Below are positions 10,415 to 34,365 of a DNA stretch of 34,365 nucleotides, one piece after another. A program made the position numbers and the translations under genes. Numbering within the stretch: the stretch's first letter is position 1; each line of letters begins with the position of its first letter. The DNA is from Desulfobacterales bacterium (lineage in GTDB: Bacteria > Desulfobacterota > UBA8473): NCBI GenBank assembly GCA_016209225.1, contig JACQWO010000026.1, forward strand, positions 1 through 34,365, given 5' to 3'. Below the pieces are notes generated by a model, which saw nothing but the letters and a program-made list of their open reading frames with translations, made no database searches and was not told the origin of the DNA.

Positions 10415-10699
10415 GGCGCGGTTTTTATCCCGAAACAATGTCTGATAAGGTATATTATGTAAACTTTGATATGCGGCAACCATCAAAACCCCATTTGAAT
10501 TGCTTGCCCTTCCCCCAATACCAGTTCCTCGGTTCAAAGTTCAAGGTTAGAAAGCGATCAAGATTGAACGGTTTGAAGATACGCCAGGCGTTTTGCACGG
10601 AAGTCCAGATATGGCAGCCGTGAACCGTGAACCTGACAACCTGAGTAGTTACGACACAGTTAACTAATAAGACACAGATGTGCAAATATATCAAACAAA
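10415..10699. other. Intergenic gap between convergent genes
   Basis: The 285-nt gap between the stops of the ClpX-like gene and paaK copy 1. Short open frames here show no recognisable family. The right half holds inverted word repeats and one GTAACTACTCAGG-type terminus, listed separately. No clear intrinsic terminator for either gene was found. Confidence 0.6.
10531..10652. repeat. Word repeat with one GTAACTACTCAGG-type terminus
   Basis: GGTTCAAAGTTCAAGG at the left is met by GTGAACCGTGAACC on the right, an imperfect inverted pair. The right end is AACCTGAGTAGTTAC (10638-10652), the same terminus as at 15724, 25550, 28931 and 30182. No matching left terminus is visible, so this copy is partial or degraded. 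Confidence 0.6.
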
Positions 10700-13548: not shown

Positions 13549-13660
13549 GGTCTTCGTTTAAAGTTTACGGTTTGCAGTTAACAGTTGGCAAAAATGCTTC
13601 AAGCTTTATATAACAGCGGGCTTAAGCCTGCTGTTGTAGAACCGTGAACGGTTACTATTG
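13549..13660. repeat. Inverted word repeats inside the liv operon
   Basis: The livM-livG gap carries GTTTAAAGTTTACGGTTTGCAG and TTAACAGTT words, with GAACCGTGAACGGTTAC as the opposed arm. Between them is a near-perfect palindrome AACAGCGGGCTT/AAGCCTGCTGTT (one G-T pair). It has no coding capacity and no T-run. It resembles the other word repeats of this window. Confidence 0.65.
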
Positions 13661-22447: not shown

Positions 22448-22518
22448 AAATGCCTCCCCTCCCCTTTCTCTAAAACAGAGGGAGTATACAAATCTTGTTA
22501 ATGTTTTGTCAAGGAATT

Positions 22519-22748
22519 TTGATGGCTTCGTAAAAATTCCATCTGCGGCGTTGCACTGCATCCTTCGTCGTTGCAGCGTACCTATGGAAATAGTTCACGG
22601 TTCACTGTTTACCGTTCACTGTAAGTACATGGTTTGTTGACGGACAACGGTCAACGGATAACAGTCAACAGATAATAGGATTTGCGCGCCTTGCATCTGG
22701 AGCTTTTTACTTTGCCATCTCAATTTTGACTTTTTACGAGTCCATCAA
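22519..22748. repeat. Miniature inverted-repeat element, ACTCGTAAAAAGTC family, interrupted
   Basis: The left end reads TTGATGGCTTCGTAAAAATTC; the right end, read inward, is TTGATGGACTCGTAAAAAGTC. Left body continues through CATCTGCGGCGTTGCACTGC to about 22583, right body from about 22679. The right 68 bases match 32363-32431 in opposite orientation with only a few changes. The element has no gene. It sits 9 nt downstream of the PHP gene stop and provides the false upstream extension of the TPR frame. About 95 bases of unrelated word repeat split it in the middle. Confidence 0.8.
22584..22678. repeat. Word repeats nested in the miniature element
   Basis: GTTCACGGTTCACTGTTTACC and TTCACTG words, then GGACAACGGTCAACGGATAAC and CAGTCAACAG words. 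They split the miniature element into two halves whose ends still face each other, so this DNA arrived or expanded after the element did. Confidence 0.65.
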
Positions 22749-22757
22749 TTTTGGGCT

Positions 22758-23408
22758 TTAAATCTTAAGTCTCTCCAAGATTTCCATTGAGTTTTTGCGT
22801 AGTTTATTAAATTCCTCCTCTGATAAACCTGCTCCCATAGCAACGGTTCTTGCCTTTTCCAAACTGATTAGATCGCCAGGGCAGTGGGAATCGGTGTTTA
22901 AAACCAGTCTGGCGCCTATTCTGGTTGCAAGCTTAGCCACATGGCCATTGGTTAAAGAATGCCCTGCCCTAGTGGTAATCTCCAGGTATATGCCTCTCTC
23001 CTTTGCTATCTCTGCTTCTTCTTCAGTTATTAAACCCGGATGAGCCAGAATATCTATGTCAGACAACAATGCCTCTCGATTGGTCCCGGGCGGTACAGGT
23101 TCTACCGTTGTTTCTCCATGAACAACCACTATCTTCGCGCCCATATTTCGGGCCCTTTTCTCCAGCTGAGAGATTATGGAAGGGGGAACATGGGTAATCT
23201 CTATGCCCGGTATTGCCCTTATCCTCCATTTTGAAGAAAGGTCATCACAGACACTTACAATCCTGGGAACAATGAAGTCAAGGTTTGATATATCGGCATG
23301 GTCTGTGATAGCGATTGCCTGATAACCAATAACTTCTGCCCTTCTTACCAGTTCCGAAGGTATTAATTCGCCGTCGCTAAATATAGAATGGGTATGAAGA
23401 TCTATCAT
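22758..23408 (-). CDS. PHP-domain metal-dependent phosphoesterase
   Basis: 216 residues, a full minimal PHP domain. All expected metal ligands are visible: H5-T-H7 in '[11 protein letters not shown]', 'AITDHAD' with H37, 'PGIEITH', 'VVVHGET', 'ILAHPG', and '[10 protein letters not shown]'. Homologues hydrolyse histidinol phosphate or other small phosphoesters; the substrate here cannot be named. No histidine genes are nearby. It stands alone between a degraded dehydrogenase and a miniature element. Confidence 0.9.
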
Positions 23409-25373: not shown

Positions 25374-25550
25374 GGTAACTACTCAGCCACCGATCTACGC
25401 TGATCATCACTGATATTTTTTCTTAACTGCTTAGGTTCAAAGTTCCGGGGTTCACGGTTCAAGGTTAATGAAGTCGTAAAATAAGCTTCATAAAAACTTT
25501 TAAGAATACTATCTGCGTTCATCTGTGTGAATCTGTGGCTGAATAGTTAC
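25374..25550. repeat. Terminal-inverted-repeat element, CACAGATGAACGCAGAT word type
   Basis: Left end GTAACTACTCAGCCAC (25375 onward), right end GTGGCTGAATAGTTAC, inverted. The next-inner words are GATCTACGCTGATCATCACTGAT at left and ATCTGCGTTCATCTGTGTGAATC at right. The centre contains GGTTCAAAGTTCCGGGGTTCACGG words and a small ATGAAG/CTTCAT pair. It fills the 210-nt gap between the kinase and the cyclase gene; the right end is 3 nt from the kinase stop codon. Confidence 0.75.
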
Positions 25551-28740: not shown

Positions 28741-28931
28741 GTAACTATTTAGGCACAAAGAGACAAAGGCACATAGGCACAAAGAATAAGAAAAAAGCAA
28801 AAAACAACACCTGCCTGCCGGTAGGTAGGGAAACAACCGTATCGCTCGACAGAAATTTATGCTCACAATAATAGCAAACCAAATAAACTTTGTGCCTTTG
28901 GTGCTCTGTGCCTTTGAACCTGAGTAGTTAC
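28741..28931. repeat. Terminal-inverted-repeat element, CAAAGGCACA word type
   Basis: Left end GTAACTATTTAG, right end AACCTGAGTAGTTAC. Inner words are GCACAAAGAGACAAAGGCAC at left and GTGCCTTTGGTGCTCTGTGCC at right, inverted. The centre has CCTGCCTGCCGGTAGGTAGG, itself nearly palindromic. The right end runs into the transglutaminase gene: the TAA stop (28928-28930) lies inside the GTAAC of the terminus. Confidence 0.75.
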
Positions 28932-30103: not shown

Positions 30104-30182
30104 GTAACTACTCAGGTAGATAGGCTGTAGACTGTTAGCCTAACAGCCTTCAGCCTACAGTCTAAACAACCTGAGTAGTTAC
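30104..30182. repeat. Compact palindromic terminal-inverted-repeat element, TAGGCTGTAG word type
   Basis: 79 bases: GTAACTACTCAGGT at left, AACCTGAGTAGTTAC at right, with TAGGCTGTAGACTGT and CAGCCTACAGTCTA inside, again inverted. Nearly all of it could fold into one hairpin. It lies between the transglutaminase gene start and the LPP20-like gene stop, ending 6 nt before that stop. This is the cleanest member of the family here. Confidence 0.8.
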
Positions 30183-34225: not shown

Positions 34226-34245
34226 TGATGAACTCGTAAAAAGTC
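34226..34245. repeat. Terminus of ACTCGTAAAAAGTC-family element
   Basis: TGATGAACTCGTAAAAAGTC, one base different from the terminus at 32364. The interior side is to the right, toward the new + strand gene. This marks the breakpoint of the CgeB-like gene and may be the left end of an insertion sequence running off the window. Confidence 0.75.
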
Positions 34246-34292
34246 ATGTCTTTTAAGTAGTTGAAATAATTACAAAAAGGTGTATTTTTTGT

Positions 34293-34321
34293 TTGCTTTT
34301 CTCTTTACATTTTGGTATAAA
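34293..34321 (+). promoter_or_regulatory. Candidate sigma70-type promoter
   Basis: TTGCTT (34293-34298), 17-nt spacer, TATAAA (34316-34321). It lies 36 nt before an ATG that has AGGTG at 34347-34351. Spacing and context fit a promoter for the gene that leaves the right edge. Confidence 0.5.
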
Positions 34322-34357
34322 AAAGCCAGATAATCAACCAAATTGTAGGTGAAAAGC

Positions 34358-34365
34358 ATGATACA
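34358..34365 (+). CDS. Start of an unidentified + strand gene, cut by window edge
   Basis: ATG at 34358 with TAGGTG (34346-34351) at suitable spacing and a promoter-like sequence upstream; only M-I and part of a third codon are inside. The family cannot be told. Position just inside an inverted-repeat terminus suggests a transposase; this is inference. Confidence 0.45.

Follow-up and report, generated by a model that had tools for sequence, protein, structure and literature searches.

The window, that is, the whole stretch of DNA analysed (34,365 nucleotides), represents one entire contig, C46, of a draft genome that totals 3.10 Mb in 95 contigs. Between two minus-strand genes, a PHP-domain gene (stop at 22758) and a TPR-repeat gene, it carries a 226-bp MITE copy at 22521–22746, whose ends are 19 bp long and whose target duplication, AATTTT, measures 6 bp. 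The ATG assigned to the TPR gene in the open reading frame list, 22561, falls inside the element, and the real start of this gene is therefore probably lower. By the same list, no open reading frame of at least 80 amino acids lies wholly within 22521–22746, and no Rfam family was found at gathering score in the window. The features of the locus are as follows.

22515–22520, no strand: left copy of the target-site duplication, AATTTT, same as 22747–22752; a single AATTTT stands at the empty site of the sister genome G004
22521–22539, plus strand: left terminal inverted repeat, GATGGCTTCGTAAAAATTC (family form GATGGCTTCGTAAAAAGTC), by arm pairing
22540–22585, plus strand: left shell half of the MITE, which is the left arm of its long imperfect palindrome and ends in GCGTACCTAT, by core alignment
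22586–22677, plus strand: word core standing where ordinary copies have the native apex AAGTACGC..CTCA; 18 distinct copies carry it as a unit
22593–22620, plus strand: left heptad array, GTTCACG GTTCACT GTTTACC GTTCACT
22621–22642, plus strand: loop GTAAGTACATGGTTTGTTGACG separating the arrays, its pattern seen inside MITE shells only
22643–22677, plus strand: right heptad array, GACAACG GTCAACG GATAACA GTCAACA (four words, 22643–22670) and a closing GATAATA
22678–22727, plus strand: right half of the MITE shell (GGATTTGCGCGCCTTGCATCTGGAGC...); TTTGCGCGCCTTGCATCTGGAGC has 64 genome matches at ≤3 mismatches, control 0
22728–22746, plus strand: right terminal inverted repeat, GACTTTTTACGAGTCCATC, by arm pairing and family-wide matches
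22747–22752, no strand: right copy of the target-site duplication, AATTTT, same as the left copy, by the empty site

An earlier note on this DNA had described two halves of a miniature element with facing inverted ends, split by about 95 bases of repeated words, and both the ends and the words proved real. The facing arms (22519–22539 and 22728–22748) are 21 nt long, 86% complementary and separated by 188 nt, and the end GACTTTTTACGARKYCATC was matched 92+90 times across the 3.10-Mb genome (≤2 mismatches), the reversed control 0+0 times. Inside the right shell half, at 22703–22719, a direct repeat, CTTTTTACTTTGCCATC, forms a further end-like stretch. The core that holds the words measures 92 bases. 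With ≤3 mismatches allowed, GTTCACGGTTCAC gave 16 window matches, compared with 4.15 on average and 10 at most over 100 shuffles, and GTTCACNGTTYAC gave 137+158 matches genome-wide at ≤1 mismatch, compared with 9+9 for the control. For ACTCGTAAAAAGTC (≤3 mismatches), 11 matches were counted in the window alone, a number also reached by one of 100 shuffles, so that the case is carried by the genome-wide copies. A period-7 scan, in which the window core stayed below threshold, returned 34 runs in loci of the same genome and 1 in a Markov control, a biased count in that the 34 include at least one stretch of N and that many of the loci were picked for their words.

The MITE family and other small elements

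In the genome of the window, the MITE body is a long imperfect palindrome between 19-bp inverted ends, with an A/T-rich target duplication of 6–7 bp. An exact duplication of this length was found for 42 of the 56 two-ended copies, compared with a mean of 1.3 for randomly re-paired flanks, and the duplicated sixmers start A-rich and end T-rich. Ordinary copies are 153 bp long, compared with 226 bp for the window copy, and their apex reads ..GCGTAC CCCT AAGTACGC.., with a small hairpin (GCGTAC..GTACGC). Uninterrupted copies, whose existence the earlier note had anticipated, dominate the census, which rests on 64 right halves located by pattern (first-look scoring covered 40 of 195 candidates, at most 13 per relative). 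Fifty-three are plain native, seven combine the ordinary apex with a left-stem insert or duplication (L006, L028, L027, L146, L258, L014 and L253), two are word-cored (L001 and L002, the copies of the window and of contig C76), and two are without a recognisable left half (L017 and L019). The plain native class comprises 51 copies of standard core length together with L233, in which the left stem is shortened, and L238, which has one extra base at the apex. The ordinary apex is thus kept in 60 of the 64 right halves, and all seven extra inserts occupy the left stem rather than the apex: three hairpins of the CCCCTG..CAGGGG type, two of the GCCTGCC..GCAGACAGGC type, one large insert and one partial duplication.

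Ends and body of the family also occur apart. At L040 (C11:139522-139652), the same ends surround a very different short body (TTAATTCCGTCACTCCGGCGTAAGCCGG..), and more than one core uses these ends. Conversely, the palindrome body lies within other outer inverted ends at L197, L199, L203, L205 and L206 (genomes G037, G008 and G047), for example GGAGGCTG..CAGCCTCC and ACGACCTTG..CAAGGTCGT. The body with an ordinary-type apex was found between different outer ends at five of six loci compared, in G008, G047 and G037, the sixth being without a match in the stretch compared. The palindrome body is thus itself a module in wider use, which travels with different ends.

The same inverted end borders longer repeats at no fewer than 11 contig ends of the genome, and these longer repeats are probably the autonomous element. 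At 34227–34365, the window's own contig ends 120 bases into a repeat that opens with this inverted end (GATGAACTCGTAAAAAGTC), and other contigs are similar. The 35-aa tail read from one contig end had no Pfam family and no plasmid match, no transposase was recovered, and the open reading frames of L152, L156 and L162 resemble host genes by eye. The window element is a real MITE and ordinary in kind; what is unusual is its exchangeable core and that standing copies can be compared directly.

A second element family has 13-bp ends, GTAACTAYTCAGG..CCTGARTAGTTAC (156+161 matches, compared with 13+1 for the control), and target duplications of 7–8 bp (8 of 21 pairs, compared with 0.5 by chance), and inside these ends stand facing arrays of 7–8-base words of several kinds. 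It was found in the window at 30104–30182 (duplication AGTTTATC), 28741–28931, 25375–25550 and 10528–10652 (one end), and at the loci L105, L106 and L189. S23p/IVP (PF05635) genes without an exact duplication are present at L105 and L106, and at L189 a duplication AAATAAG goes with IVP remnants that match L108 at 94% over 122 nt. PF05635 matched 11 places in the genome, none of them on the window's contig, and eight of these (L101–L108) have word runs on one or both sides, by eye. The flanking words differ by locus (GATTTAC, GGATTCAA, AGCCTTC, GGTTCAA and CATTCTT), and a regex scan for GTTNNNN-type words therefore found none at the PF05635 loci. L102 and L104 carry near-alike S23p/IVP genes with similar word runs, with an in-frame TAA in L104. 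In a third kind of element, GTTCAC-type arrays face each other round AACAGCAGGCTTAAGCCTGCTGTT, often bounded by GTAACCG or GTATCCG, as at 13561–13655 and at L061, L063, L068, L069 and L077.

Word-cored copies and the exchange of cores

The word-cored subfamily comprises 18 distinct copies in at least four genomes, with three copies in G003 (same genus) and five in G024 (another family of the phylum). Other full-length copies thus carry the same central words, a result that the earlier note had named as one that would refute its reading, but they do so only as a minority subfamily. The left shell of the window copy matches native copies up to 22581–22585 (query positions 77–81), and the junctions of the core, 22585/22586 and 22677/22678, fall within three bases of the clean insertion points that had been predicted (22583/22679). 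They are not clean, however: the native apex stretch is absent in all 18 word-cored copies, and because these bases are gone, the word core is a replacement of the native apex, not a clean insertion. Part of the old apex may survive between the arrays, as AAGTAC/AAGTGC follows the left array of the word core and the same bases follow CTAT in ordinary copies, an agreement with a chance of a few per cent by rough estimate.

In a search across 84,980 species, each represented by a single genome, the exact loop pattern was found at ten places, all ten in this MITE's shell, in the MAGs CG_4_8_14_3_um_filter_43_13 (Deltaproteobacteria; apparently the same as G003), PowLak16_MAG11 and SpSt-1152. At two of these (L226 and L228) the right shell is disrupted and the left shell is there, and at three (L222, L227 and L230) a TCCGCC..GGCGGA hairpin replaces part of the left stem. 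The suggestion that the words are mobile in their own right was not borne out, and an independent mobile element was rejected for these words, the loop module having turned up only within the MITE.

That the words are expandable was borne out by the heptad numbers, which were compared in 18 copies after two repeat loci and L139 (loop pattern unmatched) had been removed from 21 loci. The left arm has two heptads in one copy, three in five, four in ten and five in two, and the right arm has one heptad in one copy, two in four, three in three and four in ten. The left arm was read as heptads by construction and the right arm was not, and right-arm lengths are 7, 14, 21 or 28 in 18/18 copies. Tandem seven-base units that change unit-wise, as in the short tandem heptads of cyanobacteria, STRR, are thus present here. 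Left and right heptad numbers did not correlate (Spearman 0.21, P = 0.40, n = 18), and, given the exact sevens and the lack of correlation, this unit-wise and independent variation would be the mark of slippage within each arm. The arm words consistently differ (GTTCAC in the left arm; in the right arm, read on the complementary strand, GTTGAC, GTTGTC or GTTATC), which makes it unlikely that one arm was copied from the other. Strong pairing of the word arms was likewise unsupported, since the arms vary independently and the fold of the word core (22590–22675) has a z of only −1.09, with 34 of 200 shuffles folding as well, and that of 22570–22690 a z of −1.15, with 26 of 200. Whole elements, in contrast, fold better than expected by chance, with a z of −2.94 in the window copy and −4.19 in a native copy. 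In G024, a second heptad core was found in the same shell (C8, C11b and C10b), in which ATCAGC-type words face GCTGA-type words and heptad numbers vary between copies.

For the window copy itself, an exact empty site was found in G004, where CAAGGAATTTTGGGCTTTA corresponds to CAAGGAATTTT-element-AATTTTGGGCTTTA of the window and the flanks run on across a single AATTTT; the site is empty in G001 too. The word-cored copy on C76 has different flanks, a duplication ATCCTT, and an adjoining right end with the last base changed. The empty site, together with a word-cored copy at another site, shows that the words were not gained at the window locus: the window copy landed already word-cored, at 22520/22747, and the composite moves as one unit. 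After word-cored copies without both ends were dropped (18 to 15), the target duplication was exact in nine of 15, at nine different sites, and six were without it.

To compare standing copies, the flanks of 56 copies of the genome were matched with those of 39 usable copies from G003 (21 from 23 loci), G004 (11 from 13) and G001 (7 from 8), a subset of what these three genomes contain. Seven shared insertions (11 pairs) were obtained, and the cores were unlike at four of the seven, or at three of six without L240, which was spotted before the systematic comparison and biases the former ratio up by one. The apex changed at two of the seven (L240 and L014), and the rest of the changes are in the left stem. 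At L240, with the same flanks and AAAGATT duplication, the copies of the own genome (C63) and of G004 (C29) have the native apex, and that of G003 (C82) carries the word core together with a 27-bp hairpin. In all else the elements of G003 and G004 agree base for base, over 64 bases before and 68 after the changed stretch, in which the native 21-base apex stretch of G004 faces 101 bases in G003; the direction of this change is unrooted. L014 has three cores in three species: two left-stem inserts in the own genome, a native core in G003 and, in G004, an apical hairpin of the form GTAGGGGCACGG..CCGTGCCCCTAC. At L258, a CCCCTG hairpin stands in the left stem of the own copy and G004 is without it, and at L252 a small left-stem insert was found in G004, with flanks merely 70–80% alike. 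At L241, L248 and L255, cores are the same but for single bases. Such unlike cores at shared insertions indicate that hairpin modules are gained and lost while copies of this family stay in place, and the word core is one such module. The idea of an element split by words hence holds in part: at one shared locus a copy acquired or lost words without moving, which is not what happened at the window locus.

Proposed history and alternatives

Judged from the sequences compared here, the reading we favour, with a probability of roughly 75%, is that of a word-cored MITE in which hairpin modules are swapped in a standing palindrome, heptad numbers then change by slippage, and the resulting composite is transposed. 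The exchange or addition of modules, at the apex as well as within the left stem, would take place in situ, either through recombination (gene conversion) with another MITE copy or through template switching or insertion at the extruded hairpin. In one subfamily, the word core, with its facing heptad arrays and fixed loop, takes the place of the small apex hairpin. Each array may then lengthen or shorten by replication slippage, independent of the other arm, and a putative transposase acting on the shared ends would move the composite.

The strongest alternative holds that the in-place change is gene conversion between dispersed MITE copies and that the word core arose once, long ago, a proposal to which we give an even chance. 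It explains the identical shell round an exchanged core, and G003 has possible donors in its further word-cored copies on C13 and C187. However, the 27-bp GCCTGCC hairpin of C82 is absent from these other two word-cored copies of G003, and the other shared loci differ by unrelated hairpins, which need another source than one old core. This alternative bears on the route of the exchange, not on the main reading.

A clean nested insertion, in which a small mobile word-array element jumped into the MITE and split the host copy, was the earlier interpretation and now looks improbable. The closeness of the junctions to the predicted points speaks for it, and word arrays do ride on other small elements here (those with 13-bp ends and 7–8-bp duplications). 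Nevertheless, besides the loss of the native apex stretch from every word-cored copy, the word core is not framed by a target duplication (by eye), own-genome matches outside C46 and C76 consist of arms plus at most the first loop bases, and the loop module elsewhere is confined to the MITE.

It is very improbable that the word core is ancestral and ordinary copies are its deletion derivatives: the word-cored form does occur in genomes of different families, but deletion cannot make ordinary copies from a form whose every copy is without the ordinary apex stretch, and the apex is kept in nearly all own right halves (60/64) and, as an ordinary type, in the same palindrome between other outer ends (G008, G047 and G037), so that this history was rejected. 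Equally improbable is an assembly artefact from repeats of 150–260 bp mis-joined in metagenome assemblies, for which it counts that all genomes are drafts and that so many own contig ends lie within a repeat with the same inverted end, since at least four assemblies share this composite, its flanks differing between them and its duplications in many cases matching, and the empty site of the window copy is exact.

A broader proposal, which we regard as speculative and unlikely to hold, is that in these genomes a general, undescribed process installs facing arrays of 7–8-base words in the hairpins of elements that are otherwise unrelated, namely the present MITE (with its two word types) and the family ending in GTAACTAYTCAGG, part of which carries S23p/IVP genes, in which case the arrays would be the product of one activity, possibly S23p/IVP-linked, and not debris of unrelated repeats. 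If the S23p/IVP link were true, it would bear on the old question of the mobility of rRNA intervening sequences, as does the presence of S23p/IVP genes in the second family for the mobility of these genes.

Relation to known systems

We know of no described MITE with an exchangeable heptad core, no description of one was found in the open-access literature, and a search of paper full texts for the literal repeat stretches gave no related paper. Bacterial MITEs include RUP, NEMIS, ERIC and Nezha, and as characterized in the relevant part of the source (PMC3733652) they resemble the window element in being 70–300 bp long and non-coding, with inverted ends. The present family differs from them in that its core is an exchangeable hairpin module with facing arrays that change by whole heptads. 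GTAG REP palindromes are small hairpins whose mobility by RAYT transposases has been hypothesised, in the account excerpted from the same source (PMC3733652), and a lookalike was found in the G004 module at one shared MITE locus (GTAGGGGCACGGTGACCGTGCCCCTAC). In contrast to these REP/REPIN sequences, 20–40 bp palindromes with GTAG at one end, the window core is much longer, and no GTAG was seen by eye at its boundaries (22586/22677).

Variable heptads are known from two further settings. In Coxiella, the 23S rRNA intervening sequence carries heptads (GACAGAT) before an S23p open reading frame, in strain-variable number, and the element is called selfish by the authors in the portion consulted (PMC4990558). 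It shares variable tandem heptads with the window element, but lies in rRNA and has an S23p open reading frame, whereas the window element has no coding capacity and stands between genes. TAACTGA heptads form many intergenic runs of 2–6 in Beggiatoaceae, some Cyanobacteria and Bacteroidetes; going by the sections covered (PMC4679880), they differ from the window core in being direct repeats of one fixed word, which do not face each other and stand outside a MITE.

The shared MITE insertions in sister species serve as fixed landing pads at which the core differs while the element stays, and they show apex heptad arrays growing or shrinking by whole units. They thereby offer a testable system for the origin and spread of short-word arrays and small palindromes in bacterial genomes. 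The closest published parallel that we found, as far as the quoted text of PMC4476775 goes, comes from lichen Nostoc, where the P6b stem in the trnL intron has seven-base repeats in both arms and whole-unit indels, and where one class of repeat has repeatedly given way to another. P6b and the window core have in common a complementary heptad stem, indels on one or both sides and class replacement. They differ in that P6b is a group I intron stem at one locus with other words, and the window core the apex of a transposable element. The swaps of cores described here parallel the heptad-class swaps of the Nostoc trnL intron.
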